In this document: positions 5,281 to 44,388 of the stretch, one piece after another
Layout: every line of letters begins with the position of its first letter
How positions within the stretch are numbered: position 1 is the first letter of the stretch
Source: Ignavibacteriales bacterium
GTDB lineage: Bacteria; Bacteroidota; Ignavibacteria; UBA10030
DNA length: 64,000 nucleotides
Direction of reading: 5' to 3'
Assembly: GCA_026390575.1 (NCBI GenBank)
Contig: JAPLFR010000008.1
Span: 1 to 64,000 of the forward strand
Translations under genes and position numbers: made by a program
The notes under the pieces: model-generated
The model's database searches: none
What the model was told of the DNA's origin: nothing
Seen by the model: only the letters and a program-made list of their open reading frames with translations

Positions 5281-5318
5281 TTATCAAACCCGATAACGCA
5301 TCGGTTTCAAATTGATAA
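5281..5318 (+). promoter_or_regulatory. enhancer-like half-site array, copy 1
   Basis: TTATCA (5281), a 4-bp spacer, CGATAA (5291), then TGATAA (5313), which is 22 bp after the second half-site. Spacing is identical in copies 2 and 3. It lies 86 bp before a -24/-12-like element. The best candidate protein is the sigma54 regulator encoded just upstream. Confidence 0.65.
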
Positions 5319-5366
5319 CACAAAATAACACAGCCGCTATTTTTAAAAGAATGACAATAATTTTTA

Positions 5367-5382
5367 TGGTATATAACTTGAT
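5367..5382 (+). promoter_or_regulatory. sigma54-like promoter element, copy 1
   Basis: TGGTATATAACTTGAT keeps the -24 GG and the correct spacing, but the -12 GC is GA. It is homologous to the intact promoter at 13264. If active it would give the GH55-like gene a leader of about 420 nt. Activity is uncertain. Confidence 0.4.
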
Positions 5383-5392
5383 GAATAATCTT

Positions 5393-5815
5393 CTGGAATA
5401 GCTGGGCTGGGTTTGGCACTTCTATGCCGGATAAAAGATGGCATGTAATTAGATTTCATGCCAGGAATGAACAGAGTGAGGGCGATCAATGGACGACTTT
5501 TATGTTCTACCTGCAAGGTGCGTCAGCGATCGATACATTGGTTGTATCAAACAGTTCATTTTTCCAACCAAACAAATGCTTCCTTTCTCAGTGAAAACTA
5601 ATTACACTCATGACTGTGTAATCCATTTATTTCCACAGGTTCTGTCAGATATTGGTATTGCATCCTGTTGGGTCTCCTTGTCGTTCACTTTTTCTGATTG
5701 AATAATTTAAGTCTTCTTCACCAGATGCTTTTTTTCAACCTGTACTGTGTTGCGGAAAACATTTTTTTAAAAGCATAAGTTATTTTCAAATATTGGAAAT
5801 ATAAGGAACCTCGCA
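5393..5815. other. long leader before the GH55-like gene
   Basis: No supported gene; a 70-codon frame at 5489-5701 looks random. There is an inverted repeat TGGCATG (5439-5445) / CATGCCA (5457-5463) with an 11-bp spacer, which could be an operator. A LacI-operator-like stretch lies at 5748-5761. Confidence 0.4.
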
Positions 5816-8800
5816 TTGTATAAAGGAAATATGATTATTCTGAAAATTATTTTAATGATAATTCAAGTTATCATTCTTTTGTCTATAGAATCGCAGGCTT
5901 CGGATATCCATAACGATACATGCTCATCAAATGATAGATCCAGAAAATCGTTTTATAATACATCGCTAAATGATCAAAAAGCAATATACCTTACTCCGGA
6001 AAATTTTCCTGTAACTCCAAACAAGGACGGCGATGATTCTGATGCATTACAGGAAGCAATAAATAGAGCAGAAGAAAAGTCTGTGTTTGGTGTTGTCATG
6101 ATTCCCGAAGGTGTATATCAAATCAGCAAAATTATCTATGTCTGGAAGGGAATACGTTTGATTGGGTATGGAGAGAACCGGCCCGTTTTTGTTCTTGAAG
6201 ATAATACACCAGGATACCAGGAAGGTAATGGGAAATATATTATCCAATTTGCGAGTAATAGACCGGGAAATGGTCGTCCAATTCGTGACGCCAATCCCGG
6301 TACATTTTATAGTGCTATAAGTAATATCAACATTAAAATCAAAGACGGAAATCCAGCTGCAATTGCAATCCGCTCACATTTTGCGCAACATTGTTATATT
6401 GCCCATGTTGATATTGAAATTGGTAAGGGCAGGGCAGGTGTTGAAGAAGTAGGTAATGAAATTGATGATTGTCGTTTTATTGGTGGTGAATATGGTATAA
6501 TAACTAAAAAGCCATCACCAAGCTGGCCGTTTTTAATGATTGATAGTTATTTTGAAGGACAGACAAAAGCTGCTATTTCAACTGAAGAAGGAGGACTTTC
6601 ACTAGTTCGAAACAGTTTTAAGAATGTTCCGAGCGCAATAGTAGTAAATCCTGATCGTGCGGAAGAGCTTTTTATTATTGATTCGCGGTTTGAAAATATT
6701 AGCGGTCCCGCAATTATCATGAGCGATGAGTATAATGCTCGGGCGCAATTCAACTTAAAAAATATTGTTTGCATCAATGTTCCTATACTTGCATCATTTC
6801 GCTCGAGCAATAAACAGATCAAGGTTTCATATAAAATATATCAGGTAAAAGATTTTTGTCATGGATTACAAATAGCTGACCTTGGATATTCCCCTGAAAT
6901 TAAAACCACTTCAAATATCATGCCACTTGAAAAGGCACCTGAACCGGTAGACTCGGATATTCCGGAACTGCCTGCATGTAAGGATTGGGTGAACCTTGTT
7001 TCTTTAGGTGCGAAGGGTGATGGCGTAACGGATGATACAGAAATTTTGAAAAAGGCTATTGCTCAATACAAGGCAATATATCTTCCCACAGGACGCTACA
7101 TTGTAAAAGAAACCATTGCACTTGAACCGAATACAGTTTTGATCGGTCTTAATCCAATATCTACTCAGATTGTTCTCGCTGATAAAACACTTGAGTTTTG
7201 CGGTAAAGGATATCCAAAGCCGTTACTCATGGCGCCAAAAAATGGATCTAATATCGTAACAGGTATTGGGTTAGACGGAGGCGCATTCAATGAACGCGTT
7301 GTAGTCGCTAAGTGGATGGCAGATTCCAATTCAATGATGAACGATGTTCGCTTTATTGGCGGGCATGGAACCTACAATGTCGATGGATCCGGTGTTCAAG
7401 TTTATAACCAATTTCGAAACAGCGATCCATTTGTTGACCGCGATTGGGATTCACAATATTGGAGTTTGTGGATTACAGACGGCGGCGGAGGAACCTTTAA
7501 AGATATATGGACGCCAAATACATTTGCCCAGGCAGGAATTTACGTCTCTCATACAACAACACCCGGACGTCTTTATGCCATGTCTATTGAACATCATGTT
7601 CGGAATGAAGTCATTATACGAAATGTTTCGAATTGGAAAATTTATGATATGCAAATGGAAGAGGAGAGTGCAGAAAGTCCGCATGCATTACCTCTTAGGA
7701 TAGAAAATTCAAGTAATATTACTTTTGCCAACTTATACCTCTATCGTGTTATCCGTATGATATCTCCATATCCTAACGCAGTAATTGTATATGCATCACG
7801 AGATATCGAATTCTGTGGAATTCATGTTTACAGCCCCACCAAATATTCTTATGATAACACTATTTATGATCAATCTTATGATTATCAAATTCGCGATAGG
7901 GAAATTGCCAGGTTAAATATTTCCGGCAAGCCTCTGAAGGAAAATAAAAGTGCAAATAATTCATCTGTCATATATCCCGGCGCACAAGTGGAAAAGGTCG
8001 TAGGAGGTTTTGAATTCATAGACGGTGCTGCAGTTGACAGTAAAGGGAATGTATACTTTACGGATTCGCGGTGGCGTCAGATTTATCGGTGGTCGACCGC
8101 AGATAATAAATTAACTCTTATGAGAGCACTTCTTGTTACTCCTGTGGGGCTTGCATTTGATCAGTCTGACAATCTTCTTGTAACTACAGGTGACGGTCAA
8201 GTTGTTGCATTTGATCCTCAAAATTCAGAAGATGATCTTCAAATCCTTAAATCTGTTCCCCCCGATTCACATCATGCAAAAATTGCTTTGATTCCAGGGC
8301 ACAGGTGGCGTGACGGACATGATTTTTTAACAATCACGACCTATTCTAAAGAAAATCCGCCGATTACGGGTTCATCTTTTACTGCTTATCAACGTGAGGC
8401 TGTTAATCCGCTTACTGATCATTTTGTCTCACCGGATGGAACTACTTTTTTACCTCAGTGCAGTGATTTACGCAGAGCTTATTCTCTTCGTACCGCAATT
8501 TCAGGAACTCCATTTTTTATGGCAGATGAGTTCGGCCAAAAAACCTACAAGTTTTCGGTTAATCCCGATGGATCGCTTTCGCATCCCGAGCTTTTTGCGG
8601 AACGAGGCGAACTAGATGTTGCAGTAGATTCTAAAGGTAACGTCTATATTCCTGCCGGGAATATTTTTGTCTATGATAAATCGGGTAAACAAATTGATGA
8701 AATTAAAATACCGGAGCGTCCTACGTGTGTTGTCTTCGGAGGAAAAGATAGGAGTACACTTTACATTACAGCTCGATCATCATTATACAAAATTAATATT

Positions 8801-8830
8801 CAAAACAGTGGCCAGACTATAACTAAATAA
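5816..8830 (+). CDS. GH55-like double beta-helix glucanase fused to a beta-propeller
   Basis: A 1004-residue exported protein. After a signal segment (about 6-25) come two pectate-lyase-3-type right-handed beta-helix halves. The first runs about 58-360 (NKDGDDSDALQEAINRA). The second starts near 390 (LGAKGDGVTDDTEILKKAI) and runs to about 700. Two tandem helices are the architecture of GH55 exo/endo-beta-1,3-glucanases, which fits the locus. Residues about 720-1004 form an SMP-30/gluconolactonase or NHL-like propeller (GAAVDSKGNVYFTDSRW, LDVAVDSKGNVYIPAG). I cannot place catalytic residues with certainty. The TTG start at 5816 has AAGGA at good spacing (5803-5807). ATG 5831 with AAAGGA is the alternative. 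It has no T9SS sorting domain. It is the first gene after the sensor operon. Confidence 0.68.
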   Translation: MYKGNMIILKIILMIIQVIILLSIESQASDIHNDTCSSNDRSRKSFYNTSLNDQKAIYLTPENFPVTPNKDGDDSDALQEAINRAEEKSVFGVVMIPEGVYQISKIIYVWKGIRLIGYGENRPVFVLEDNTPGYQEGNGKYIIQFASNRPGNGRPIRDANPGTFYSAISNINIKIKDGNPAAIAIRSHFAQHCYIAHVDIEIGKGRAGVEEVGNEIDDCRFIGGEYGIITKKPSPSWPFLMIDSYFEGQTKAAISTEEGGLSLVRNSFKNVPSAIVVNPDRAEELFIIDSRFENISGPAIIMSDEYNARAQFNLKNIVCINVPILASFRSSNKQIKVSYKIYQVKDFCHGLQIADLGYSPEIKTTSNIMPLEKAPEPVDSDIPELPACKDWVNLVSLGAKGDGVTDDTEILKKAIAQYKAIYLPTGRYIVKETIALEPNTVLIGLNPISTQIVLADKTLEFCGKGYPKPLLMAPKNGSNIVTGIGLDGGAFNERVVVAKWMADSNSMMNDVRFIGGHGTYNVDGSGVQVYNQFRNSDPFVDRDWDSQYWSLWITDGGGGTFKDIWTPNTFAQAGIYVSHTTTPGRLYAMSIEHHVRNEVIIRNVSNWKIYDMQMEEESAESPHALPLRIENSSNITFANLYLYRVIRMISPYPNAVIVYASRDIEFCGIHVYSPTKYSYDNTIYDQSYDYQIRDREIARLNISGKPLKENKSANNSSVIYPGAQVEKVVGGFEFIDGAAVDSKGNVYFTDSRWRQIYRWSTADNKLTLMRALLVTPVGLAFDQSDNLLVTTGDGQVVAFDPQNSEDDLQILKSVPPDSHHAKIALIPGHRWRDGHDFLTITTYSKENPPITGSSFTAYQREAVNPLTDHFVSPDGTTFLPQCSDLRRAYSLRTAISGTPFFMADEFGQKTYKFSVNPDGSLSHPELFAERGELDVAVDSKGNVYIPAGNIFVYDKSGKQIDEIKIPERPTCVVFGGKDRSTLYITARSSLYKINIQNSGQTITK

Positions 8831-8961
8831 TAGGCAAGACAAATTATTCTTTCGAAATAATTATTGCAAATTGAATTATCTCTCATAAATGTCTCACGTA
8901 TATCGTTCTTGTTAAAATGTCCAAAAAATAGATGGTCTATATTATTGGTGGAGAAAAATCG

Positions 8962-11082
8962 ATGGAAAGATACTCGGAGAACAAAATACTGAAAAAAGTA
9001 AGAACGGTTTTTCTTTTCATGCTTATCGTTGTCTCTGTAAATATTAGTTATTCGCAATACACAACGAAAGACCAGGATATTATAAACATAAAAACGGGAG
9101 AAAAGGTTATTCTCCGTGGTTTCGGATTGGGATGCTGGTTGTTACCGGAAGGTTATATGTGGGGAATTCGAAAAATTGACAGGCCGTGGCAGTTTGAAAA
9201 AGCAATTAAAGGTCTCATCGGCGTGGAAGATGCAAAAGAATTCTGGCGTCTCTTCCATGAAAATTATTTGACCGAAAGTGATATCGCAGCAATGAAATTA
9301 TGGGGGGCGAATTCTCTTCGTATTCCGCTACTGGCTTCAGTTCTTCAACCGCGAGAAGGACAACCGAATAATCCGCCTTATAATTATTCCCAGAATGGAT
9401 TTGATTTGTTGGATCGTTTGGTAAAGTGGTGTAATACGTATGATATTGGAATTATTTGGGATTTGCATGGCGCGCCAGGTGGGCAAAATGCCGAAAACAT
9501 TTCCGACAGCGATGGGGAAGCCCGGCTGTGGACGGAAAAGGAAAAATATTGGCCCATGTGTATCGAACTTTGGTATAAGATTGCCGAAAGATACAGAAAT
9601 GAAAAATGTATTATCGGTTATGATTTGTTGAACGAGCCTTTGCTCATCCGCTATAATACTATTTCCCCAAAACTTCTCCGCGAACTTTATATTCAACTCA
9701 CTGATACAATTCGTACAGTTGATTCGGAAGGCATAATCTTCATCGAAGGAGATGATTGGGCGCAGACGTTTGATTTTTTGGAGCCGATGAATTGGGATAA
9801 GCATCTGTCAATGGCATTTCATTCATATCCACCTACATCAAACCAGGAAGCACTCGGACGATGGGATGCGCTACGTAAAAAATATAATATTCCTCTTTGG
9901 CATGGAGAAACGGGAGAACAAGGTCCACCTTATGCACGCAATATTGAAGCGACAATTTTTCTTGAAAGCGCTAATGTAGGTTGGAGTTGGTGGACGCATA
10001 AAAAGTTTGATTTGCAGAGTCAACCATGGAGTATCATTAGAAGCCCGGGATTTTTAAAAATATTAGACTATTGGAACGGAATTGGAGAGAAGCCTTCTAA
10101 GGAACAGGCTACGATCTGGCTATTTGAACAAGCAAAAATGACTCATTCGGATTACTGCGAGTTCTTCCCGGAAATGGTACGATCTCTTGTTTCTTTAAAT
10201 CCTGATAAATATGTAGAAACGATGGAAGTTAGGCAGCCGGAAATTGTCATTCAACCAGAAAATATGAAATCGGAAGTTGGCGGTGCCGTTCAAACTATTG
10301 TAAAAGCGCGAGGCTTTCCTTTGAGTTATCAATGGTCCAGGGACGGCAATATATTACCCGATCAAACAACAAATCGTTTGCATATTTCCAATCTTGCCAT
10401 AAAAGACAATAGCAGCACATTTGTTGTAAAAATATCAAACGCAAAGGGAACGTCTCAAAGCCAAAAAGTTACTTTAAGCGTAACTCCATTTACCGGTCCA
10501 ATTATTCAAAGCACATCCATTCCGATAAAAATCGATGCAAGTACTGACGACGTCTGGGAAAAAGTTCAGCCACTTATACTTAGTCATCTTGTTTTTGGAG
10601 AAAAGAAATCCGAGTCCGATCTATCTGCTTGGGTTAAACTTCTCTGGGATAAGGAGAATCTTTATTTGTGGGTGCAAATCACCGACGATATTATAAGCAA
10701 CAGGAGCAACAGAAGGAATGCACAGGATGCATTAGAAATCTATTTGGATACGGACAATAGCAAATCGCAATCTTATGGAAAATATGATTATCAATTGCGT
10801 TACACGAGAAATGATTCCTCCGTTTTAGCAGTTCAGGGTAATCTTAACGGAAAAATAAATGCCGCACAAAAAAATGTGAGCAACGGATATCAGATGGAAC
10901 TGGCAATTCCATGGACAGCCGTCCAAGGTAGACCTCACGCTGGACAATTTATAGGTATTGATGTGCATGTATTAGATAATGATAATGAGCGTCGCAGCTC
11001 GAAAATTACCTGGAACGGAAAACAAGATTCAGCGCGAAGATCTCCCATGTTTTTTGGAACCATGAAACTTTCAGATAAATAA
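8962..11082 (+). CDS. GH5 beta-glucanase with Ig-like and CBM9-like domains
   Basis: A 706-residue secreted enzyme. A signal segment (about 12-32) is followed by a GH5 domain (about 35-385) of the exo-beta-1,3-glucanase type (RGFGLGCWLLPEGYMWG; acid/base Glu in YDLLNEP; nucleophile Glu in WHGETGE). An Ig-like domain follows (about 420-510, VVKISNAKGTSQSQKVTL), then a family-9-like carbohydrate-binding domain (about 525-706, DNLYLWVQITDD-like and DALEIYLDTDN). There is no T9SS sorting domain. The start is ATG 8962, preceded by GGTGGAG with 9-bp spacing; a longer frame begins at 8932. It is the largest of three GH5 paralogues in the window, the others being at 35.6 and 40.0 kb. Confidence 0.85.
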   Translation: MERYSENKILKKVRTVFLFMLIVVSVNISYSQYTTKDQDIINIKTGEKVILRGFGLGCWLLPEGYMWGIRKIDRPWQFEKAIKGLIGVEDAKEFWRLFHENYLTESDIAAMKLWGANSLRIPLLASVLQPREGQPNNPPYNYSQNGFDLLDRLVKWCNTYDIGIIWDLHGAPGGQNAENISDSDGEARLWTEKEKYWPMCIELWYKIAERYRNEKCIIGYDLLNEPLLIRYNTISPKLLRELYIQLTDTIRTVDSEGIIFIEGDDWAQTFDFLEPMNWDKHLSMAFHSYPPTSNQEALGRWDALRKKYNIPLWHGETGEQGPPYARNIEATIFLESANVGWSWWTHKKFDLQSQPWSIIRSPGFLKILDYWNGIGEKPSKEQATIWLFEQAKMTHSDYCEFFPEMVRSLVSLNPDKYVETMEVRQPEIVIQPENMKSEVGGAVQTIVKARGFPLSYQWSRDGNILPDQTTNRLHISNLAIKDNSSTFVVKISNAKGTSQSQKVTLSVTPFTGPIIQSTSIPIKIDASTDDVWEKVQPLILSHLVFGEKKSESDLSAWVKLLWDKENLYLWVQITDDIISNRSNRRNAQDALEIYLDTDNSKSQSYGKYDYQLRYTRNDSSVLAVQGNLNGKINAAQKNVSNGYQMELAIPWTAVQGRPHAGQFIGIDVHVLDNDNERRSSKITWNGKQDSARRSPMFFGTMKLSDK

Positions 11083-11147
11083 TAAGTTGCTTCTTGGCCT
11101 TAAACGTTATAATAAAATAATGTTAAAATAAATTAGTGGAGGATTTT

Positions 11148-12575: not shown

Positions 12576-12589
12576 AGGACTAATTAGTT

Positions 12590-12802: not shown

Positions 12803-12830
12803 TAGTAAATAAAGAATTATGATCTTCAAT

Positions 12831-12861
12831 AAAGGGATAGAAATTAATTTTCTATCCCTTT
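12831..12861. terminator. 13-bp perfect hairpin, probable terminator
   Basis: AAAGGGATAGAAA (12831-12843) pairs perfectly with TTTCTATCCCTTT (12849-12861) around a 5-nt loop. It sits after the GH5-GH30 unit, beyond the REP-like element. There is no long T run after it on the plus strand, so termination strength is uncertain. Confidence 0.6.
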
Positions 12862-12967: not shown

Positions 12968-13102
12968 ATGGAAATAAATTTTTGCAAAGAAATATTTTGA
13001 ATTTATGTGGAAAATTCGACAAATTAAGCAAAAGCAACTTGAGAACTTGATTTTACTGCACCCGATTATCTTAGAATATCTAAGGAACTTAATCTGAAGT
13101 AG
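12968..13102 (+). pseudogene. decayed 3' end of a sigma54 regulator gene
   Basis: The DNA aligns with the last ~135 bp of the regulator gene at 5066-5202. The best parts are TTTGCAAAGAAATATTTTGAA (compare the FRKKYFE codons) and the last 13 codons, which read PDYLRISKELNLK-stop against PNYHRICKELGLK-stop. Between them are a TGA and at least one frameshift, so it cannot make a protein. The homology continues downstream into the intergenic segment and its half-site array. It is a relic of a paralogous regulator or of a segmental duplication. Confidence 0.75.
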
Positions 13103-13177: not shown

Positions 13178-13215
13178 TTATCAAGTCTGATAATGTTTCG
13201 GTTTTAAATTGATAA
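13178..13215 (+). promoter_or_regulatory. enhancer-like half-site array, copy 2
   Basis: The array is TTATCA (13178), AGTC spacer, TGATAA (13188), then TGATAA (13210). The first two form a perfect 9-4-9 palindrome (ACATTATCA/TGATAATGT, 13175-13196). The centre is about 100 bp before the expected start of the sigma54 transcript, the usual place for an NtrC-family enhancer. Confidence 0.75.
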
Positions 13216-13263
13216 CACCAAATAACACAGCCTTGGTTTTAGAAAGAATGCTCGTAATTTTTA

Positions 13264-13279
13264 TGGTACATAACTTGCA
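13264..13279 (+). promoter_or_regulatory. sigma54 promoter of the TonB receptor 1 operon
   Basis: TGGTACATAACTTGCA matches the sigma54 consensus TGGCAC-N5-TTGCA, with GG at 13265 and GC at 13277 at correct spacing. It lies 86 bp after the half-site array and about 240 bp before the receptor gene. This is the intact member of three related elements. Confidence 0.78.
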
Positions 13280-13519
13280 GGTCATTCTCATGAACAAATA
13301 ATGCGTTTTCTATAAATGCAAAGTGTATTTTGGTTGCCGAAACCATTTGTGGAAAATTAATGTGCTTCATAGATCATGCATAATTATTTTTGGAGCAGTA
13401 CAAGTATTGAGTTATTATTAATCCATTCGAATCATTTTGACGTTATCGAAATGTTTCGTATAATCATTTAGAAAAAAATGAATCTAAGTAAGTTATAAAA
13501 AAGAGAAGGTGTTCCAACT
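13280..13519. other. leader of TonB receptor 1
   Basis: AT-rich, no frame. It contains TGGTT-GCCGA-AACCA (13331-13345), a loose relative of the palindrome at 888-900, and an AGAGAAGG ribosome binding site just before the receptor start. Confidence 0.35.
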
Positions 13520-16279
13520 ATGTCGAAGACATCACTCAATTTTCTAGGTCGTCTCCTTGTTGTGTCATTTCTCCTTTTTCCGGTGATGGCAGATGCAGGT
13601 CAGACAGGCAAAATCGCTGGTCGTATACTCGATGCGGCCACAAATGAACCGCTCATCGGTGCTAATGTGAGTGTGAAGGAGACTTCACTCGGCACAATAA
13701 CGGATATCGATGGCTATTATACAATTAACAATATCCCTCCGGGAAAATATTCTGTTGTTGTCGGATTTATTGGATACAGAAAATTTACCATGACGGATGT
13801 TATCATAAAAATCGATCTCACAACACAGGTAAATGCTAATTTGCAGACAGAGGCAATACTTTCCGACGAAGTGGTTGTTATGGCGGAACGGCCTATTGTT
13901 CAAAAAGACCTCACATCATCATCGGTGACGGTATCGAGTGAAGAGTTGAAGCGCATTCCGACAGAGAGTATCTCTCAAGTTATTAATATCCAAGCTGGCG
14001 TTGTTGGCGGTCATTTCCGCGGTGGCCGTTCGGGCGAAGTCGCGTACTTGATTGACGGAGTCTCAGTCAACGATCCCTACAATGGCTCGATGCCCATGCA
14101 AATCGACAATTCGGTTGTTCGTGAAATGGAAGTCATCAGCGGAACGTTCAATGCAGAATACGGGCAAGCAATGTCAGGCATCGTCAATGTTGTTACGTCT
14201 GAAGGATCGTCATCGTATCACGGTTCCATTTCCGCTTATACGGGTGAATATGCCACTTCGCATACTGATATCTTTCCGAACAATGGCAGTCTCAAGAGTC
14301 TTGGAATAAAAAATATTCAAGGAAATCTTAGCGGATATATTCCTTTCATTCCAAATTTGACTTTTTTTGTGACAGGTATGTATTCCTCAGACAGAGGTTA
14401 CCTCTATGGTCAGCATGTCTATGATGTTTCTGATCAGACACCAATCCGAATGACAGACGCTATAGGTAATCCAGTGTTTTATACAGACAATAATGGCAAC
14501 CCAATGTATGACTATCCAGTGTATGTCTACTTTGTTAGGGGTCAACTGAAGATGCCTGCAAGTCCAAGTCCATCCGATATCGCCGCACTTATTGGTAATC
14601 CAGAATATGTAGCAATGAATCCGTCTCAAAGACGTTCACTCAGTGGAAAACTTGCCTATTCTATTGGGACTCTTAAATTTGTTTATAACGGTCTTTGGGA
14701 TGATAACTGGAATAAATACTATGACCATTCATTTGCGTGGACCCCGGATGGTATCCAGAACCACTATCGTACTGATTGGATTCACTCATTTCAGATCACA
14801 CATTCCCCGACTGCCAATACTTATCAAACGCTGAAGTTCGGCTACAATTGGTATGACTATAAGGGATACCTTTATGAAAATCCTTTTAACACCCTCTATG
14901 TCAATCCTGACCAAGGTGCACCGACCGGCGGTGGTACTGCCTATACATTTCGCACAGGTGGCAACCAAACTAATCGCTATGATCGGTACTCCAAAGCAGC
15001 CATAGCCCAATATTCATTTAGCTCGCAAATTAATAATAAACAAAAAATCGGCGTCGGGGTTGAATGGCGCGCGCATGAACTTTATTCACATTCAACAGAT
15101 TTAAACTCTTATATGGTATATCCGGACCTTGGCGCCCCGGGTAATCAGTTTTATCTTAAAAAGCCGACCGAACTATCCGCTTATGTTCAGGACAAAATTG
15201 AATACGATATGATGATCATTAATCTCGGCATCCGATTCGACCAATTTGATCCGGCTTCGTCTTATCCTATGGATCTAAAGAATCCGACAAAAAATCCCCT
15301 GTTTCCTTATCCTGACGTCTGGCAACCTGCAAGCAAAAAAACTCAATTAAGTCCGCGGTTTGGAATTTCTTTCCCGATTACTGATCAGGGTATCATCCAC
15401 TTTTCGTACGGACATTTCTTCCAAATACCGAGTTTCGATAACCTGTATAGAAACTCCGATTATTTAGTTCCGGAATCAAGCACTCTCAACACAATCGCTG
15501 GGAATCCAGACCTTGAGCCACAACGGACTACCAAGTATGAACTCGGCCTTCAACAAGTTCTTTTCACTAATGTCGGTTTAGACCTTTCCGTGTACTACAG
15601 CGATATCCGTAACCTGCTCGGTGCGGAAATCATACATACTTACGAAGGACGCATTTATGCCAGACTTGTTAATCATGATTATGGCAATGTGAAAGGATTT
15701 ATTCTTTCGCTCGATCGACGCTTTTCAGATTTTTACGGTGTGAAGCTTGACTATACGTATCAATTAGCTTCAGGCAACGCATCCGATCCCTTGTCGGTAT
15801 ATAATAATAACCAGACCGACCCTCCAATCGAAACTCCCAAAACTGCAATGCCATTGGATTGGGATCAACGATCGACTCTCAACTTGTCATTCACAGTGGG
15901 CAAACCTGAGGATTGGAATGTCGGACTCATTTTTTCGTATGGATCAGGATTCCCCTATACAGAAGATACTCGCGTATCGAGTGGTATACGCTTCGAAAAC
16001 GGAGGACTCAAACCTTCTTCATACAATGTAGATATGCGTGCCGAAAAGACAATTTCTTTGGCAGGCGGTCATATAACTCTCTTTGCATTGATCTATAACC
16101 TCCTCGATACAAAAAATGAAGTCAATGTGAACGCGGCGAGTGGTAGAGCGAATATCGATTTATACACATATCGGTCGGGTCCCATTGTCGGTCTGAATAC
16201 AATACAACAATACTTGAATAATCCGCAGAGTTACTCTGCCCCGCGTCAGGTTCGGCTCGGGTTCAGGGTTGATTACTAA
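13520..16279 (+). CDS. TonB-dependent outer membrane receptor 1
   Basis: A 919-residue receptor. A signal peptide (about 1-26, MADAG) is followed by a CarboxypepD_reg-like domain (about 29-115, GKIAGRILDAATNEPLIGAN). The plug domain (about 130-235) has ERPIVQKDLTSSSV, YLIDGVSVND and FNAEYGQAMSGIVNVVT, and a 22-strand barrel ends in RQVRLGFRVDY with the terminal aromatic. It should import glucan oligosaccharides across the outer membrane. It is shorter than most SusC proteins and no SusD gene follows. Its partners are the large surface protein and the PorV/Q-like protein immediately downstream. Transcription is expected from the sigma54 promoter at 13264. Confidence 0.85.
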   Translation: MSKTSLNFLGRLLVVSFLLFPVMADAGQTGKIAGRILDAATNEPLIGANVSVKETSLGTITDIDGYYTINNIPPGKYSVVVGFIGYRKFTMTDVIIKIDLTTQVNANLQTEAILSDEVVVMAERPIVQKDLTSSSVTVSSEELKRIPTESISQVINIQAGVVGGHFRGGRSGEVAYLIDGVSVNDPYNGSMPMQIDNSVVREMEVISGTFNAEYGQAMSGIVNVVTSEGSSSYHGSISAYTGEYATSHTDIFPNNGSLKSLGIKNIQGNLSGYIPFIPNLTFFVTGMYSSDRGYLYGQHVYDVSDQTPIRMTDAIGNPVFYTDNNGNPMYDYPVYVYFVRGQLKMPASPSPSDIAALIGNPEYVAMNPSQRRSLSGKLAYSIGTLKFVYNGLWDDNWNKYYDHSFAWTPDGIQNHYRTDWIHSFQITHSPTANTYQTLKFGYNWYDYKGYLYENPFNTLYVNPDQGAPTGGGTAYTFRTGGNQTNRYDRYSKAAIAQYSFSSQINNKQKIGVGVEWRAHELYSHSTDLNSYMVYPDLGAPGNQFYLKKPTELSAYVQDKIEYDMMIINLGIRFDQFDPASSYPMDLKNPTKNPLFPYPDVWQPASKKTQLSPRFGISFPITDQGIIHFSYGHFFQIPSFDNLYRNSDYLVPESSTLNTIAGNPDLEPQRTTKYELGLQQVLFTNVGLDLSVYYSDIRNLLGAEIIHTYEGRIYARLVNHDYGNVKGFILSLDRRFSDFYGVKLDYTYQLASGNASDPLSVYNNNQTDPPIETPKTAMPLDWDQRSTLNLSFTVGKPEDWNVGLIFSYGSGFPYTEDTRVSSGIRFENGGLKPSSYNVDMRAEKTISLAGGHITLFALIYNLLDTKNEVNVNAASGRANIDLYTYRSGPIVGLNTIQQYLNNPQSYSAPRQVRLGFRVDY

Positions 16280-25246: not shown

Positions 25247-28200
25247 ATGAAGCGAAAATCTATTCTTGTTGGAAAAGCTGATCTGAAAGTTGAACAACGC
25301 AAAGTTGTAGGCGACTATGTTAACATTCAGGGAGAGCAATTTTATAAAATTGCCAACTATGATCAAATGCCCCCGTTTTTCATGAGCATTGTTAGTTCGT
25401 CGGATCATTGGATGTTTATCTCAAGCAATGGAGGACTAACCGCAGGCCGTAAAAACCCAGACATCGCTCTCTTCCCCTACTATACGGATGATAGAATCCA
25501 TGATTCGAAAGAGAACACCGGCAGTAAAAGCATCATCTTTCTTACTAAGGGTACGAAAACATTTTTATGGGAACCCTTCTCGCAAGTCTATGATGGCATC
25601 TATCGAAAAGAAAGAAATTTATACAAAAATGTCTATGGCAATAAATTGATCTATGAAGAAATCAATCGAGACTTACATGTTTCATTTCGATATGCATGGT
25701 TCAACAGCGAGAAGTACGGCTTCATCAAACGATCCCAAATTGTGAACCATAATCTGGGACCGATTAAAATAAAAATCTTGGATGGGATACAAAACCTGCT
25801 TCCTTCTGGATTAAATCGAAGATTCCAATTGGAATATAGTACGCTCGTTGATGGTTACAAAAAAAACGAATTGCAAACTGATTCCGGGCTGGGGCTTTTT
25901 ATACTCAGCTCGATTCCAGTAGACCGAGCCGAGCCAAGCGAGGCTTTGAAAGCAACAACTGTCTGGTCGGTTGGTATCAAGAAATCAAAAAAGCTTGTCT
26001 CATCACTGCAGTTGGATGCATTCAAAAAAGGAATGCACATTAAACAGGAAACCGATATCAGAGCTTCACGGGGGGCTTATTTTGTTAATACCGAATTTTC
26101 TTTAAATAAAAATGAAGAGAAGGAATGGTTCATTGTCGCCGATGTCAATCAAGATTCTTCTGATGTTGCCACTCTATCTGAATTGATTAAAAAAGGTAAA
26201 AATATTCAGAAACAGCTTATGGATGATATTGCACAAGGCACCGATAATCTTGTGAAGAATGTCGCCAGTGCTGATGGTCTTCAAGTCACAGAAGATATGC
26301 TGATCTGTTCCCGCCATTTTTCGAATACGTTGTTTAATGTTATGCGTGGTGGTTTTTTCGATAACGATTATTGGGTTGATAGAGAAGACTTTATCTCCTT
26401 TATCAAAACCGCTAATAAACATGTAGCCGAAATATACAACGGCTTTCTGCAGACTCTTCCGGAAAAGATATTTCATTCCGATTTACTGTCGAAGATACTT
26501 GCGCTCAATTCAGTTGATCTGGAAAAATTGTGTTATGAGTACCTGCCGCTCACATTCAGTCGGCGCCATGGTGATCCAAGTCGTCCATGGAATATCTTCT
26601 CGATAGAAATTAAAGATGAGCATGGGAAAAAAGTGTTGAACTATCAGGGTAACTGGCGGGATATTTTCCAAAATTGGGAAGCATTAGCATTGAGTTTCCC
26701 TGGCTATGTTGAGGGGATGATGACGAAGTTTGTCAATGCGTCAACTGCTGATGGATATAATCCGTACAGAGTAACGCGAGATGGTTTTGATTGGGAAGTG
26801 CTCGATCCGCATGATGCCTGGTCATACATCGGATATTGGGGGGACCATCAAGTCATTTATCTAGTTAAGTTGTTAGAAATCTCGGCTCGTTACCATCCTG
26901 GGAAGATTCAAGAATTCCTGGTAAAGGATATCTTTGCTTATGCTAATGTCCCGTATCGAATAAAACCATATGTTGATTTACTCAAAGATCCTTGTAAAAC
27001 AATTGACTTTGATATGGCATTAGAACGAGAGATTGAAAAACGTGTGGAACGGATGGGAACTGATGGAAAATTTCTTGCGAACCAGCATGGAGAGATCATT
27101 CATGCCAATTTAACCGAAAAATTTCTTGTCTCAATTTTAGCGAAGCTCTCTAATTTTATTCCTGAGGCCGGTATTTGGATGAATACACAACGTCCGGATT
27201 GGAACGATGCTAACAATGCCTTGGTGGGTTCAGGAGTTTCGATGGTTACCCTCTACTATCTCCGAAGATATTTGACGTTATTCCGCGAACTAATCCAATC
27301 TTCGAAAATATCGGAGGTTCAAGTATCAGAAGAAGTAGCAGAGTTGTTTGTCTCGATTACTGAAATATTCAAAACGCATTTGATATTACTGAATGGATCG
27401 ATTTCCGATAAAGATCGAAAAATCATTCTTGATAAACTTGGCAAAGCCGGAAATGAATATCGAAATAAAATTTACTCGAAAGGTCTTTCTGAAAGAAAGA
27501 AAAAGATTACAAGTGCAGCATTAAAAGAGTTCTTTGAGTTGTCTCTCAGGCATATCGACCATACTATCGAAGCAAACAAGCGTAAAGATAACCTCTATCA
27601 TGCGTACAACCTGATGAAAGTTGAAAATGGAGATGGAATCTCTATCCGTCACTTGTATGAAATGCTCGAAGGGCAGGTGGCAGTTCTAAGCTCTGGTTAT
27701 CTCTCTGCAGCAGATTCTGTAGAAGTGTTGGATGCACTGCGAGCAAGCTCTTTATATCGAAAAGATCAATCGAGTTACTTGTTATATCCGGATCGACAAT
27801 TGCCCCGCTTCATGGAAAAGAATATTATTCCAAAGGAAGAATTCGAGAAATCCGCCCTATTGAAGAAACTTATTGAGAATGGAAATAGGCAGATCGTTCT
27901 TTCTGATCTAAAAGGCGGGATACACTTCCATAGCAATTTCCGGAATGCTGACATTTTAAAGACTGCCCTCGAAGGGTTACAAGTTAGCGAATATCAATCT
28001 CTACTGCAGAAAGAAAAGGAATTTATTCTAGATATCTATGAACGTCTGTTTGATCATCAATCATTTACCGGACGTTCAGGAACATTTTATAAATATGAGG
28101 GATTGGGTTGCATTTACTGGCATATGGTTTCTAAACTGCTGCTTGCTGTTGCAGAAGTTATTACTCGAGCAGAAAAGAACGACGAAACTGCTGCAATGAA

Positions 28201-35607: not shown

Positions 35608-36834
35608 GTGCTAAGAACCGGATTGAAATATCTGCTGTTCATTTTTTTCTTTTCCAATTTTGGATTTGCCCAACAATCTACGTTTGTGGGAACCAAAGGA
35701 AAAGAGATTGTAATGCCGGATGGAACACCGATTCTTCTTCGAGGTATCAACCTCGGAAACTGGCTTGTGCCAGAAGGGTATATGTTCAAGTTCGATTCGG
35801 CCACATCTCCTCGATTGATCAATAATGTTTTGTGTGAACTAGTCGGAGCAGATGAGGCGCGAATGTTTTGGAAAAAGTACCGCGACAACTATATTACACG
35901 CGATGATATAGAGTACATCAAAAAAGTGGGATTGAATTCTGTACGTATTCCATTCAATTGGAGGCTTTTTACTATTGAAGAATATCCGGACCTCTGGGTC
36001 GGTCCGGGATTCGAACTGCTCGATCGTGTGATTCGTTGGTGTAAAGAAGCAGGTATATGGGTTGTTCTCGATATGCATTGTGCACCTGGGGGACAGACCG
36101 GTGACAATATTGATGATAGCTGGGGATATCCTTTTCTTTTTGAAAATCCTGAAAGCCAAGAGCGCGCGATTCAACTCTGGAAAAAAATTGCCGAAAGATA
36201 CAAAGATGAATCTGCCATTATAGGCTATGACTTACTTAACGAGCCTATCGCAGTTTTTTTTGATCAGAAGAAATTGAATCCATTGCTTGAACCATTCTAC
36301 AAACGAGTTGTTTCTGCGATTCGCGAGGTTGACAAAAATCATATTGTTTTTCTTGGCGGTGCTCAGTGGAATACAAATTTCAGTGTTTTTGGCCCACCGT
36401 TCGATAAAAAAGTTGTTTACACTTTTCACAGGTATTGGTGCGATACAACACAGGCGACAGTACAGGAATATATTAACTTTCACAACATTTATAATGTGCC
36501 GCTATGGATGGGAGAATCGGGCGAAAACACTAATGCATGGATCGCAAGTTGGCGTCGACTTCAGGAACGAAATAATATTGGGTGGTGTTTCTGGCCATAT
36601 AAAAAGATGGAATCACAACAATGCATGGTTACGTTCGATCGTCCCGCGCATTGGAACTTGTTAGTACAATTTGCGAAGAGTCCCCGTACAGGTTATGCAA
36701 GCTTACGTACTATCTGTCCATCCATTGATAGTGTTCGTACAGCTCTTGATGAATTCATTCGTCTTTGTCAATTTAAAAACTGCCTGTTGAACGAAGGATA
36801 CACCAAAGCGTTGGGGAGTAGAACAAATAAATAA
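35608..36834 (+). CDS. GH5 exo-beta-1,3-glucanase-like enzyme
   Basis: A 408-residue, single-domain GH5 enzyme with a signal peptide (about 1-21, FGFAQ). It shows RGINLGNWLVPEGYMF, DMHCAPGGQTGDNI, acid/base Glu in YDLLNEPIAV, and nucleophile Glu in WMGESGEN. It is the closest in layout to fungal-type exo-beta-1,3-glucanases and is a paralogue of the GH5 domains at 8962 and 40035. The start is GTG 35608 with only a weak ribosome binding site, 24 bp after the GH3 gene, which suggests translational coupling. Confidence 0.87.
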   Translation: MLRTGLKYLLFIFFFSNFGFAQQSTFVGTKGKEIVMPDGTPILLRGINLGNWLVPEGYMFKFDSATSPRLINNVLCELVGADEARMFWKKYRDNYITRDDIEYIKKVGLNSVRIPFNWRLFTIEEYPDLWVGPGFELLDRVIRWCKEAGIWVVLDMHCAPGGQTGDNIDDSWGYPFLFENPESQERAIQLWKKIAERYKDESAIIGYDLLNEPIAVFFDQKKLNPLLEPFYKRVVSAIREVDKNHIVFLGGAQWNTNFSVFGPPFDKKVVYTFHRYWCDTTQATVQEYINFHNIYNVPLWMGESGENTNAWIASWRRLQERNNIGWCFWPYKKMESQQCMVTFDRPAHWNLLVQFAKSPRTGYASLRTICPSIDSVRTALDEFIRLCQFKNCLLNEGYTKALGSRTNK

Positions 36835-36869
36835 AATGTTGTGTATATTATTTACAAAGGAATTTGGTA

Positions 36870-40007: not shown

Positions 40008-40034
40008 CTCCAAAACTTGACCTATAAAGATCGA

Positions 40035-42080
40035 ATGATAAACTCATCAAACTACAATCGAATATTGATTCAACCTGTAAAGTTGATATTCTTTTTGATC
40101 ATTAGCATTTGTGCTGCAAACGAAATTCTCATTGCTCAAGGATATCTCCATACATCCGGAACGAAGATAATGAAGGGCAATGGAGACGAAATGATTCTCC
40201 GAGGGATTGGGCTTGGGGGCTGGCTCGTTCCTGAAGGATATATGCTTCACACCTCAGGATTTGCAAACTCCCCAACAGAAATTCGAAATAAAATTGTAGC
40301 GTTAGTAGGTCAAACAAATTCGGATCAGTTTTTTCAATCTTATCGACAGAACTATGTGACTCGAAAAGATATTGATTCTATTGCAAGATGGGGGTTCAAT
40401 TCCATTCGATTACCAATGCATTATGAATTACTGACACCTAAAGGACAGTCAGGTGTTTTTCTTGAAGCGGGTTTTGCAATAATAGACAGTCTGCTCAATT
40501 GGTGTGAAGCAAATCATATATATCTTATTTTAGATTTACATTGCGCGCCGGGCGGCCAGAACAGCGCCAACATCAGCGACTATAGTGGCTATCCGTCGTT
40601 ATGGGAGAGTACAGTATATAAACAACAAACAGTGGCATTGTGGAAGGAACTTGCAAGACGCTATTCTGATAAGCAATGGATTGGTGGATACGATTTATTG
40701 AACGAAACTGTATGGACATTCGGGACTACACCTGCAAACCAGCCATTGCGAGCTTTATACAAACAAATCACAGATTCTATCCGAACAGTTGATAAGAACC
40801 ATATCATTTTCATCGAAGGAAATCAATGGGCAAATGATTTCGCAGGGTTGACACCACCCTGGGATACCAACATGGTTTATAGTTTTCATAAGTACTGGAA
40901 CCCGAATAATACGAGTTCTATTAATACATATCTAAGTCTAAGAACTAACAACAATGTCCCACTCTGGTGCGGTGAGGCAGGAGAGAATTCAAACCAATGG
41001 TTCGCCGATTGTATTGCACTATTTGAAGCGAATAAAATTGGCTGGTCTTGGTGGCCGCATAAGAAAATTGAATCTACTGCAGTATTACTTTCATCCCCGA
41101 TGTCGGCAGGGTATAATAATATTCTTCGATATTGGAATAATCAGGTTCCGCAGCCGAGTGTTCAGGATGCAATGGATGCCTTGAATAGTCAAGCTATGAA
41201 TTTGAATATCGATTCATGTGCGGTTCGTCGTGATGTCATTGATGCAATAATACGGCAGCCCTTTACAACAGCGACAGTTCCGTTTGCAAATCTCAATATT
41301 CCTGGATATGTTTTTGCTACCGAGTATGATATGGGAAAGAATGGTTTTGCTTATGGCGATAAAGATTTTCAGAATATTAGTGGAAACAGCGGTGGGAGTG
41401 CTTGGAATACTGGCGGACAGTATAGAAATGATGGAGTAGATATTGAAACTTGTTCTGACTTTCCAACGAATGGGTACGATGTTGACGATATAAATAATGG
41501 TGAATTTCTAACCTTTACAGTGAATGCTTCTGAAACAGCAACTTATGATATGAGTGTAAGATATACAGCGAATGCGGCAGGAAGTATGCTCAGATTATTT
41601 ATGGATGGAAACTATGATTCAGGTATTCTGACTCTTCCATCTACAAGCGGATTGCAAACGTGGAGTTCATTTAGTGCCGGACAGTACCAATTTACCGCAG
41701 GATCGCATCTATTTGGAATCTCTTTTTTATCAAGCGGGTTTAATTTAAACTATATTAAATTTACGAATGTGAATGCCCACGACCAAGATACCTCAGATTA
41801 TCAACTTCAACAAAACTATCCGAATCCTTTTAATTCAACGACAGTGATCGAATATCAGTTGCCAGCAGTAGGAACACGATTTTTTGTGTCTTTGAAAGTA
41901 TATGATGAGCTGGGGAGAGAAGTGGCAAACCTGATAAATGAACAGCAGGAGGCAGGTCCTCATCAAACTATCATGGATGCTCGTCGGCTGGCTAGCGGAG
42001 TGTATGTGTATCGGTTGTTGGCGACTGATGAGCAGAAAAATCAGCACACTTTCCAGAAGAAAATGCTTTTGTTAAAATAA
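40035..42080 (+). CDS. modular T9SS-secreted GH5 glucanase with CBM6
   Basis: A 681-residue exported enzyme. The signal segment (about 13-35) is followed by a GH5 domain (about 36-380, RGIGLGGWLVPEGYMLH; acid/base Glu in YDLLNETVW; nucleophile Glu in WCGEAGEN). A CBM6-type domain (about 420-580, EYDMGKNGFAYGDKDFQN ... NNGEFLTFTVNA) and a T9SS sorting domain (about 590-681, NYPNPFNSTTVIEYQL ... SGVYVYRLLA ... KKMLLLK) follow. The usual Pro after the acid/base Glu is Thr. CBM6 members often bind beta-1,3-glucan. The chosen start is ATG 40035; a TTG at 40017 is possible. It is the last gene of the long operon that begins near 21.2 kb. Confidence 0.88.
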   Translation: MINSSNYNRILIQPVKLIFFLIISICAANEILIAQGYLHTSGTKIMKGNGDEMILRGIGLGGWLVPEGYMLHTSGFANSPTEIRNKIVALVGQTNSDQFFQSYRQNYVTRKDIDSIARWGFNSIRLPMHYELLTPKGQSGVFLEAGFAIIDSLLNWCEANHIYLILDLHCAPGGQNSANISDYSGYPSLWESTVYKQQTVALWKELARRYSDKQWIGGYDLLNETVWTFGTTPANQPLRALYKQITDSIRTVDKNHIIFIEGNQWANDFAGLTPPWDTNMVYSFHKYWNPNNTSSINTYLSLRTNNNVPLWCGEAGENSNQWFADCIALFEANKIGWSWWPHKKIESTAVLLSSPMSAGYNNILRYWNNQVPQPSVQDAMDALNSQAMNLNIDSCAVRRDVIDAIIRQPFTTATVPFANLNIPGYVFATEYDMGKNGFAYGDKDFQNISGNSGGSAWNTGGQYRNDGVDIETCSDFPTNGYDVDDINNGEFLTFTVNASETATYDMSVRYTANAAGSMLRLFMDGNYDSGILTLPSTSGLQTWSSFSAGQYQFTAGSHLFGISFLSSGFNLNYIKFTNVNAHDQDTSDYQLQQNYPNPFNSTTVIEYQLPAVGTRFFVSLKVYDELGREVANLINEQQEAGPHQTIMDARRLASGVYVYRLLATDEQKNQHTFQKKMLLLK

Positions 42081-42139
42081 TTTTATTACAAAATTTATCA
42101 AAAGATAATAAATAAACTTATATAAAAAATCCATTGAGG

Positions 42140-42147
42140 TATCTTTG
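42140..42147 (+). promoter_or_regulatory. Bacteroidota-type -7 element before the esterase
   Basis: TATCTTTG fits the Bacteroidota -7 consensus TAnnTTTG and lies 24 bp before the esterase start. The -33 position reads CTTA, not TTTG, so it is only half a match. It suggests the esterase has its own promoter. Confidence 0.5.
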
Positions 42148-42171
42148 CAATTTTAAATAGAGGATACTTAT

Positions 42172-43812
42172 ATGCAAAAATCTGCGACTTCTTTCATCTT
42201 CCTTATAGTAATAAATTCAATGGCTTGTGCGCAAGTAAATGACGAAACTGTTGCTCCAAGAGTAAAAATTGTGAATGGTGTGCTTGAAGGAATTAATGAA
42301 TCCGGTATCCGCACTTTCAAGGGAGTTCCTTTTGCTGAGCCACCAATTGGTGATTTACGCTGGAAGGAACCTCAGCCATTAAAGAATTGGTCAGATGTAC
42401 GTAAAGCAGACAAATTTGGGCCTCGTGCTATGCAAATGCCTATTTTTGGTGATATGGGTTTTCGATCTAATGGTATGAGTGAAGATTGCCTGTACCTCAA
42501 CATATGGACACCTGCAAAGACGGACAAAGAGCATTTGCCAGTACTGGTTTATTTTTATGGAGGTGGTTTTGTGGCAGGGGATGGTTCTGAAGCTCGTTAC
42601 GATGGTGAAAGTATGGCCCGCAAAGGTATTGTGGCGGTTACAGTAAATTACCGTCTTGGAGTATTTGGATTTCTTGCCCATCCTGAGCTAACAAAAGAAT
42701 CGCCTCATCGATCCTCCGGTAATTATGGATTAATGGATCAGTCTGCAGCTTTACACTGGGTGCAACAAAACATATCGGCCTTCGGCGGTGATCCTACAAA
42801 AATTACTATCGCCGGTGAATCTGCAGGATCGGTTTCCGTTAGTGCACAAATGGCTTCACCCTTATCAAAAAAAATTATAGCTGGTGCAATAGGCGAAAGC
42901 GGCTCATTACTGGGTACGCTTCCTTCTATTCCGCTCACTGCTGCCGAACAAACAGGTGTTGAATTTGCCAAAAGCATCCCGGCAAATTCCTTATCGGAAC
43001 TCAGAACTATGAGCGCGGAAAAATTGCTTGATGCTGCTGCAAAGTTTAATCCCTTCCGTTTTTCATTAACCATTGATGGTTATTTCTTTCCCAAAAGCCC
43101 CTTTAAAATTTATGAAGCAGGAGAGCAGGCGCATGTGCCACTGTTAGTTGGATGGAATTCAGAGGAAATGAACTACCATAATATTCTGGGACCCAATAAA
43201 CCCACTTTGGATAACTTTACCAGCGCTGTGCAAAAAATTTATGGCGAACATGCGGCACAAGTTTTACAAGTTTACAACTCATCCACCGATGAAGAAGTGG
43301 AACAAGTGGCTACTGATTTAGCTGGAGACAGATTTATTGGTTTTAGTACATGGAAATGGGGCAACATACATAGTAAAACTAGTGGCAAGCCAGTGTATCG
43401 GTATTTGTTTGCCCGTCCACGCCCTGAAATGAGACCAGAAATGGGAAATGCTACGGCGGGTCTGGCAGGTGGTGTGAAGAAAGATTCTGCTGCTGCCAAG
43501 GCACCTAAACCACCAGCGGCCCGAGGCGCGGTTCATTCTGCTGAAATAGAATATGCTCTTGGTAATCTACCTACCAACCGTGTTTACGATTGGCAACCTG
43601 AAGATTATAAGGTTTCTGAAATGATGCAAACTTTCTTTGCTAATTTTATTAAAACAAATAATCCTAGTGGTCTTGGTGTACCTGAATGGCCATCTGTTAC
43701 TAATGCGAGACCGGTAAATGTAATGCTTATAGATGTCAATACTAAAGTAATACTCGAGACAATGATGCAACAACAGCGATATTTACTTCTTGATAAGCTT
43801 TCAGGGAAATAA
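42172..43812 (+). CDS. type B carboxylesterase
   Basis: A 546-residue exported alpha/beta hydrolase with a signal peptide (about 1-21, MACAQ). It has the family signatures TFKGVPFAEPPIGDLRW, EDCLYLNIWTP, YGGGFVAGDG (oxyanion hole), FGGDPTKITIAGESAGS (nucleophile Ser) and a catalytic His region near PPAARGAVHSAEIEYALG. It would remove ester groups from substrate or small molecules; the true substrate cannot be read. Its wording and codon choice look a little different from the flanking glucanase genes, and it has its own promoter, so it may be a later arrival. It is bordered downstream by debris and a MITE. Confidence 0.88.
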   Translation: MQKSATSFIFLIVINSMACAQVNDETVAPRVKIVNGVLEGINESGIRTFKGVPFAEPPIGDLRWKEPQPLKNWSDVRKADKFGPRAMQMPIFGDMGFRSNGMSEDCLYLNIWTPAKTDKEHLPVLVYFYGGGFVAGDGSEARYDGESMARKGIVAVTVNYRLGVFGFLAHPELTKESPHRSSGNYGLMDQSAALHWVQQNISAFGGDPTKITIAGESAGSVSVSAQMASPLSKKIIAGAIGESGSLLGTLPSIPLTAAEQTGVEFAKSIPANSLSELRTMSAEKLLDAAAKFNPFRFSLTIDGYFFPKSPFKIYEAGEQAHVPLLVGWNSEEMNYHNILGPNKPTLDNFTSAVQKIYGEHAAQVLQVYNSSTDEEVEQVATDLAGDRFIGFSTWKWGNIHSKTSGKPVYRYLFARPRPEMRPEMGNATAGLAGGVKKDSAAAKAPKPPAARGAVHSAEIEYALGNLPTNRVYDWQPEDYKVSEMMQTFFANFIKTNNPSGLGVPEWPSVTNARPVNVMLIDVNTKVILETMMQQQRYLLLDKLSGK

Positions 43813-43877
43813 TCAAGATATTTTTAATTTGTTGCTGTTATTTAAAGTGTGCATAGGCTCGTTAAACGAATTTTGCG

Positions 43878-44009
43878 TTATGAAGCTTTCAGTGCCTTGC
43901 GCGCCATCCGCAAGATTTCCCAAAAAGGAGGCTCAAATCCATGCTCAACCCGTAATTGTTCTGTGCTTTTCTGTACCACAGCAGCAGCTACCTTATGCCG
44001 AGTAGCATA
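43878..44009 (-). pseudogene. fragment of an unidentified minus-strand gene
   Basis: On the minus strand an open frame reads YATRHKVAAAVVQKSTEQ..., then GFEPPFWEILRMARKALKAS and a stop at 43878-43880. It has a coding look (amphipathic helices) but no start, and it runs directly into the MITE at 44010. It is the C-terminal ~42 residues of some protein cut off by the element. I do not recognise the family. Confidence 0.45.
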
Positions 44010-44178
44010 ATAATCCCAAATTATGCGATAGAAGTTGCTTCACCACTTTGAAGTACTGTAAGTCCTTTTTTCTAAGGAACTTACAGAAATTGGTCTGATT
44101 TCTTCGGAATTCTATAAACCCATTGAATATAAAGAGTTATTCATGTCGTCATTGATCTAATGCATAATTTGGGATTAT
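44010..44178. mobile_element. MITE-like element, copy 2
   Basis: The element is 169 bp with perfect 17-bp terminal inverted repeats, ATAATCCCAAATTATGC (44010-44026) and GCATAATTTGGGATTAT (44162-44178). An internal hairpin CTGTAAGTCCTT / AAGGAACTTACAG (44055-44084, one bulge) is present. It is a direct-orientation copy of the element at 510-698, but lacks that copy's extra palindrome. There is no coding frame. It sits exactly between a gene fragment and a regulator relic. Confidence 0.82.
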
Positions 44179-44213
44179 CATAGAATATGTAAAGAACTTG
44201 GCATGAAATATAG
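44174..44213 (+). pseudogene. relic of a sigma54 regulator 3' end, next to the MITE
   Basis: The DNA from ATTATCATAGAATATG onward is nearly identical to the last codons of the regulator at 5164-5202. It reads YHRICKELGMKYR, with the stop lost. Only about 35 bp remain, cut by the MITE on the left. Downstream homology continues into the half-site array at 44285. Confidence 0.75.
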
Positions 44214-44284
44214 GTCACTCGCTTGTTGTCCGCTCCAACTACAACATCTTTTTAACCAAGGTTAATAAGGTAGTTCTCCACTCG

Positions 44285-44322
44285 TTATCATTTTTGATAA
44301 GAATTCGATTATTAAATGATAT
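44285..44322 (+). promoter_or_regulatory. enhancer-like half-site array, copy 3
   Basis: TTATCA (44285), TTTT spacer, TGATAA (44295), then TGATAT (44317), 22 bp after the second half-site. The layout is the same as at 5281 and 13178, although the surrounding DNA is well diverged. It lies 88 bp before the -24/-12-like element at 44373. Confidence 0.65.
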
Positions 44323-44372
44323 TGCTAAAAAAGCAATTCGGCATTTTTTTAAGTTTATGGTAACTAATTCTA

Positions 44373-44388
44373 TGGTACATAACATGAT
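44373..44388 (+). promoter_or_regulatory. sigma54-like promoter element, copy 3
   Basis: TGGTACATAACATGAT keeps the -24 half, but the -12 GC is GA, as in copy 1. It is about 475 bp before TonB receptor 2, which also has a housekeeping promoter closer by, so this one may be weakened or dead. Confidence 0.4.

Follow-up and report, generated by a model that had tools for sequence, protein, structure and literature searches.

NtrC-type (type Ia) response regulators (RRs) such as NtrC, NtrX, ZraR and DctD join a receiver, an AAA+ domain and a C-terminal DNA-binding domain and act from tandem dyads roughly 65-105 bp above a sigma54 promoter, whose -24/-12 consensus is TGGYACR-N4-TTGCW. Control of Bacteroidota glycan loci that carry TonB/SusC-type receptors is usually ascribed to hybrid two-component systems, to SusR-like proteins or to pairs of extracytoplasmic function (ECF) sigma and anti-sigma factors. 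The subject here is three intergenic modules, A, B and C, in a 64,000-nucleotide stretch of an Ignavibacteriales bacterium (the window; contig JAPLFR010000008.1, positions 1 to 64,000). They are very probably sigma54 enhancer-promoter modules, their enhancers bound by the NtrC-type RR of the adjacent solute-binding protein, histidine kinase and response regulator (SBP-HK-RR) system. The receiver, the AAA+ domain, a probable C-terminal DNA-binding domain, the tandem dyads and their distance from the promoter resemble the NtrC type; the differences are that Pfam HTH_8 goes unmatched, that the dyads are AT-rich (TTATYA-N3-TRATAA), that the predicted targets are TonB and glycan genes, and that the window RR carries GAFTNA. 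As in the Bacteroidota systems, a sensor lies next to a SusC/TonB-type operon and glycan use would be switched on, whereas here the solute-binding protein, the kinase and the sigma54 RR are separate.

The same logic, an RR gene with conserved dyads and a sigma54 promoter, appears in sigma54 regulons that comparative genomics has traced in Desulfovibrio vulgaris (PMC4641369) and Clostridiales (PMC6615313), which belong to other phyla and use other dyads; the passages at hand report no regulator-tail fossils of the sort described below. Most D. vulgaris sigma54 promoters have their closest site at most 100 nt away (PMC4641369). The Melioribacter roseus genome paper treats SusCDE genes, and "sigma" in its passages refers to a reagent maker (PMC3534657); for Flavobacteriia, the regulation of TonB by sigma54 is called unconfirmed (PMC12316311). 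Full-text searches of open-licence papers for Ignavibacteri with sigma54 or RpoN found no paper, and none of the titles and abstract beginnings listed from the open-licence literature concerned this system. The sigma54 enhancer-promoter kind is itself known; the new part is the probable copying of a regulator tail together with its enhancer. A sigma54 enhancer system seems to run glycan-use operons in this uncultured group.

An exact search of the window finds the dyad TTATCA-N4-YGATAA at the start of each module (Table 1). From the first base of YGATAA to that of TGATAW the distance is 22 bp in every module, and TGGTAYATAAC begins 86 bp (A and B) or 88 bp (C) from the array start. The window holds this three-part pattern three times, 100 shuffles do not produce it once, and the coordinates and spacings given for the three segments in the initial annotation are exact. 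Its description of the array, in effect a dyad followed by a half-site, holds for the spacing and is incomplete otherwise: each array is a pair of dyads, TTATYA-N3/4-TRATAA, about 22-23 bp apart from start to start, ahead of a predicted -24/-12 promoter. Dyad 2 has a weak left half in A (GTTTCA) and B (GTTTTA); in C the left half reads TTATTA and stands 2 bp from the right one. As sequence matches, the -24/-12 elements agree with the consensus at 12/12 positions in B, the best of the three, at 10/12 in C and partially in A. The single parts are at chance level, both the dyad with up to two mismatches (27 matches, 25.4 expected) and the loosely matched promoter string (30 against 31.2), and the signal therefore resides in the arrangement. 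A genome-wide scan, proposed in the initial annotation with random placement of the motif pair as the outcome that would speak against it, found a relaxed three-part pattern at four places on the forward strand of the 3.82-Mb genome and none on the reverse, with zero for both reversed-pattern controls; random placement was thus not observed. The fourth place is C9:363770. Exact dyads occur at five places in the genome; one of them, C2:48259, lies within an open reading frame and is taken for chance. From the predicted promoters to the listed gene starts, the leaders measure roughly 240-470 bp (5382-5816, 13279-13520 and 44388-44862).

At least two further modules of the same build lie elsewhere in the genome. 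A paralogous RR on C11, 68% identical to the window RR, is followed by TTATCA-N3-TGATAA, TTATTA-N3-TAATAA, TGGTACGGATGTTGCA (12/12 to the -24/-12 consensus) and a TonB receptor gene. The C9 module (L022 8770-9069, G000) precedes a ROK kinase gene far from any RR of the family, and the ROK protein there is 66% identical to that of the window. Profile R1, scored on 150 of 1373 first-look candidates in this genome, returns A, B, C and these two modules at E 6.9e-21 to 1.9e-17, the next match standing at 0.29; the same five places supplied five of the eight rows on which R1 was trained. In the other genus genomes it returns nine modules at E<=1.8e-9, of which three are training rows and six are new (two each in G001 and G004, one each in G003 and G005), all six before TonB or ROK genes. 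A strict paired-dyad pattern is found at nine places in 6/6 genus genomes and in 0/35 other genomes of the order, its reversed control giving 0. TonB-type modules are present in 6/6 genus genomes and ROK-type modules in 5/6; one look at the surroundings covered 15 loci. Within the loci read, the ROK modules of G000, G001, G003 and G004 have no RR gene alongside, so that hitch-hiking on a regulator gene cannot explain them, while in G005 the ROK gene stands just before the SBP-HK-RR operon. Across 11 modules from outside the window, the dyads and promoter columns are conserved at 88%, 94% and 90%, against 62% for the spacer. Profile R2, built from 11 modules with no window sequence (the L023 module, misaligned in A3, is omitted from A4 and R2), finds B at 1.4e-5 and C at 6.4e-4.

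The dyad pairs also follow the regulator family across species. At a score of at least 22 of 24, 72 pairs occur in 49/80 RR-family loci, against 0, 0, 1, 0 and 0 in five shuffled sets, and only 3 of 68 control loci have a pair, all three behind an intact RR. In 59/72 pairs the second dyad begins 22 or 23 bp after the first. An earlier scoring, which used 79 of the 80 loci (L091, without downstream DNA, was left out), had 36/79 loci reaching 20 where 0.25 were expected; one further search covered 49 loci chosen by the authors. The pair lies within 350 bp behind the RR stop in 33 loci and 4.2-4.8 kb before it in 15, a distance at which the SBP gene starts in the annotated loci and presumably in these. 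Pairs about 4.3-4.7 kb before the RR stop in L040, L049, L055, L071, L073, L075, L079, L085, L086, L088, L090 and L092 are probably upstream of the SBP-HK-RR operon. Placed there, they hint at self-control in relatives; in the window, the R2 scan shows no module before 926. The recognition helix of the RR is nearly constant across the family, and the dyad code, being readable, opens regulon prediction across many Ignavibacteria-type genomes. The sigma54-regulator reading of the initial annotation gains its strongest support from these comparisons: within the genus, same-build modules precede the orthologous ROK and TonB genes, and across Ignavibacteria-type genomes they stand before or behind family RRs. 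A fixed helical phase between enhancer and promoter is not claimed: among 37 matches the spacing between dyad 2 and TGG falls mostly at 65-66 (4), 74-76 (15) and 83-89 (12), the periodicity is broad (R 0.65-0.67 at periods of 9-10.5), the loci are related and 12 scattered matches fall on the other side.

The likely binder of the arrays is the sigma54 response regulator encoded upstream of module A. Its receiver and AAA+ domains match Response_reg and Sigma54_activat above the Pfam cut-off, and its sequence matches in PDB are NtrC1, NtrX, ZraR and FleQ. An RR profile covers the DNA-binding domain of NtrX (5m7n_A positions 2-143, E 6e-14) and the top Foldseek match is again NtrX (E 6e-5), weak in TM-score (0.43-0.48); both comparisons extend to the DNA-binding end of NtrX, where the window RR has a putative, diverged helix-turn-helix. 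RpoN is encoded once in the genome (PF04552, C1:385593-386066, E 7e-54).

A sugar signal would lead the kinase of the SBP-HK-RR system to phosphorylate the RR. Each promoter would be served by an upstream enhancer of two tandem dyads whose spacing, roughly two helical turns, would seat two RR dimers about 65 bp above the -24 element; the dimers would assemble an AAA+ ring and open the sigma54 polymerase, switching on a glycan-degradation gene at A and two TonB-receptor operons at B and C. The ancestral unit would have been regulator gene, enhancer, promoter and target operon in that order. At B and C the 3' end of the RR gene would have been copied with enhancer and promoter, the RR pieces decaying to fossils while enhancer and promoter were kept.

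Several observations weigh against control of A, B and C by this regulator through sigma54. The -12 elements of A and C are weak, and module A matches the outside profile most weakly: R2 missed it in the 64-kb scan and gave 10.7 bits with filters off on a 1-kb stretch. At 26315-26415 on the minus strand R2 has its third match in the window (E 0.0059), which falls within an open reading frame and marks the noise level. R1 missed the TonB module of G002, found by the strict pattern; 31/80 family loci have no pair at a score of at least 22; and HTH_8 is unmatched in 32/32 family members at E 0.01. The sigma54-contact loop reads GAFTGA in 59 of 82 family members and GSFTGA in 21, and GAFTNA is confined to the window RR (window 4450-4470 region) and its nearest ortholog (L023, G005). 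Part of the likeness among A, B and C is, moreover, common descent.

Such descent is visible in the flanks, which are not independent, since degenerate remnants of the 3' end of the RR gene lie upstream of B and of C (Table 1). A and B are homologous across about 313 bp at 73%, and the short stretch upstream of C is closer to its counterpart at A than the arrays are to each other. The earlier statement that the surrounding DNA has diverged much more than the modules is thus only partly right. The argument built on it, from conserved geometry with drifting flanks to a working enhancer, is not supported in that form: A, B and C stem from duplication, the end of the regulator gene included, and geometry within the window is therefore not by itself proof of function; a sigma54 module of fixed geometry is what the genus and RR-family comparisons support. 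B and C probably arose by copying of the regulator tail with enhancer and promoter, followed by decay of the RR part, because RR remnants lie upstream of both and an intact RR occupies that place in several relatives. Among six fetched loci with B-type TonB receptors, the fetched stretch holds an RR upstream in G005, G017, G019 and G021 and none in G028 and G029; a CBM9 protein gene lies between RR and receptor in G005, G017 and G019. Three of 60 TonB-homolog loci (L152, L154 and L177) combine an intact RR directly upstream with paired dyads and a good -24/-12 element, and an intact RR also stands beside the TonB module in G001, G004 and G005. Regulator, enhancer, promoter and TonB operon is a recurring order, as read from these loci. 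The RR beside the TonB module of G004 (L197 1680-3025, G004 C41) appears split over two open frames, which may reflect a broken gene or a fault of the assembly.

Convergence of three unrelated promoters is ruled out by the RR pieces at B and C. Duplication and later loss of the whole SBP-HK-RR operon is possible, but the detectable upstream remnant is limited to 135 bp of RR at B and 37 bp at C. RR tails do not appear as general companions of such modules: of 40 extra pairs (score at least 22, from 32/80 loci, the 350 bp behind the RR excluded), 37 have tail scores at shuffle level, while L044 scores 13 against 12 and L092 17 against 15 (maxima of 30 shuffles) and L097 is trivially high as it overlaps the RR gene. 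Tail copying appears, on this survey, to be known only from the window modules. The dead RR tails offer a direct record of a regulon gaining members and a near-neutral yardstick beside conserved sites. A more general scheme, held tentatively and somewhat doubtfully, is that in this lineage a portable unit of regulator 3' end, paired-dyad enhancer and sigma54 promoter is duplicated ahead of further glycan operons, that its piece of the regulator then decays, and that each operon so reached becomes wired to the parent regulator; with paralogs across the phylum sharing one recognition helix and dyad code, new operons would be open to cross-control by all of them.

Common descent raises the possibility that A, B and C are alike only as recent duplicates, B and C being inert fossils like the RR tails beside them. 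The A/B homology, the tail fragments and the poor -12 element of C would all agree with this, yet it is very unlikely: columns in the dyads and the promoter agree better than other intergenic columns in all three comparisons (Fisher p 0.0014, 0.0006 and 0.0004, columns taken as independent), B holds the best -24/-12 match, every module directly precedes a TonB or glycan gene, and same-build modules persist before ROK genes in most of the genus. The dyads might instead serve a different DNA-binding protein, a repressor or another activator sharing these promoters, as they are simple AT-rich palindromes and RR binding to them is a prediction. Their tracking of the RR family in loci and controls and their usual spacing of 22 or 23 bp, which two dimers of a single protein should give, make this highly improbable.

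If the binder belongs to the family, the main activator of all three could still be the C11 paralog, whose nearly identical recognition helix, differing by few residues, could bind the same sites, with the window GAFTNA regulator weak, modified or a competitor. The C11 RR has an intact GAFTGA and perfect paired dyads and a promoter of its own, and the loop variant is, as noted, restricted to two of 82 members. Against this, the window has an intact SBP-HK-RR set, which G005 retains at 84-90% identity. Some natural, working activators carry D at the variant loop position, and N there counts as putatively functional (PMC3162934); GAFTDA and GAFTHA regulators are listed in the D. vulgaris work (PMC4641369). 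Activation by the window regulator is thus plausible, and it may share sites with the C11 paralog; the paralog as main activator is unlikely. A different history for C could be read from the abrupt change in A-C identity, which is 36/38 at 5165-5202 and only 43/86 on the upstream side and 31/73 on the downstream side. Gene conversion could produce such a pattern, and so could recombination at the edge of a 39-kb insertion; C may be a recent copy of A or derive from an inserted element. An insertion of about 39 kb at the RR 3' end, in the manner of integrative elements, would be marked by the 37-bp stretch, which is a direct repeat, and would have separated C and its TonB operon from the RR. 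This is possible, though rather unlikely: Pfam scans of the 21 genes examined show no integrase, the RR-adjacent module of G005 resembles C by only a narrow margin over A and B (alignment scores of 125, 106 and 112, in that order), and B also carries an RR tail.

Table 1. Modules, regulator remnants and associated genes in the window (all on the forward strand).
Feature	Position	Strand	Details
Solute-binding protein gene (SBP_bac_1), probable sensor partner	926..2233	+	Pfam PF01547, E 2e-15; SBP-HK-RR order same in relatives
Histidine kinase gene	2230..3726	+	Pfam HATPase_c, E 3e-14
NtrC-type RR gene, predicted dyad binder, GAFTNA	3742..5202	+	Pfam; PDB sequence matches; fold match; motif
Module A, paired array	5281..5318	+	dyad 1 5281-5296, TTATCA-N4-CGATAA; weakened dyad 2 5304-5318, GTTTCA-N3-TGATAA
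Module A, sigma54-like -24/-12	5367..5382	+	TGGTATATAACTTGAT; consensus TGGYACR-N4-TTGCW
Secreted pectate-lyase-like (GH55-like) gene, predicted target of A	5816..8830	+	open reading frame; Pfam Pect-lyase_RHGA_epim
Dead copy of the RR gene's last 135 bp, three in-frame stops	12968..13102	+	upstream of B; 75%, E 2e-19
Module B, paired array	13178..13215	+	dyad 1 13178-13193; weakened dyad 2 13201-13215
Module B, sigma54-like -24/-12	13264..13279	+	TGGTACATAACTTGCA; full match to consensus
TonB-dependent receptor gene, first of operon, predicted target of B	13520..16279	+	Pfam
37-bp copy of the RR gene's last codons, not part of a gene	44174..44210	+	upstream of C; 36/37 identical
Module C, paired array	44285..44322	+	dyad 1 44285-44300; dyad 2 TTATTA-N2-TGATAT from 44309
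Module C, sigma54-like -24/-12	44373..44388	+	TGGTACATAACATGAT; weak -12
TonB-dependent receptor gene, first of operon, predicted target of C	44862..48014	+	Pfam

The genes next downstream of the modules are those named as targets at the outset, a GH55-like gene for A and two TonB receptor genes for B and C; for the first, the position is right and the Pfam domain found is pectate-lyase-like, GH55 and laminarin being names supplied by the initial annotation. Module A sits between the RR gene and this gene, which is followed by genes for a GH5-CBM9 and a GH30 protein. Other genes of the window encode GH30, GH17-like, GH3, GH5, MFS and ROK proteins, and the set as a whole suggests beta-glucan use. 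The nearest named relatives are Ignavibacteria-type metagenome-assembled genomes. In the R2 scan of the window, the glycan genes at 21235-43812 have no module of their own. A direct repeat of 74 bp at 76% (9566-9639 and 36173-36246) lies within two GH5 genes, as expected for paralogs.

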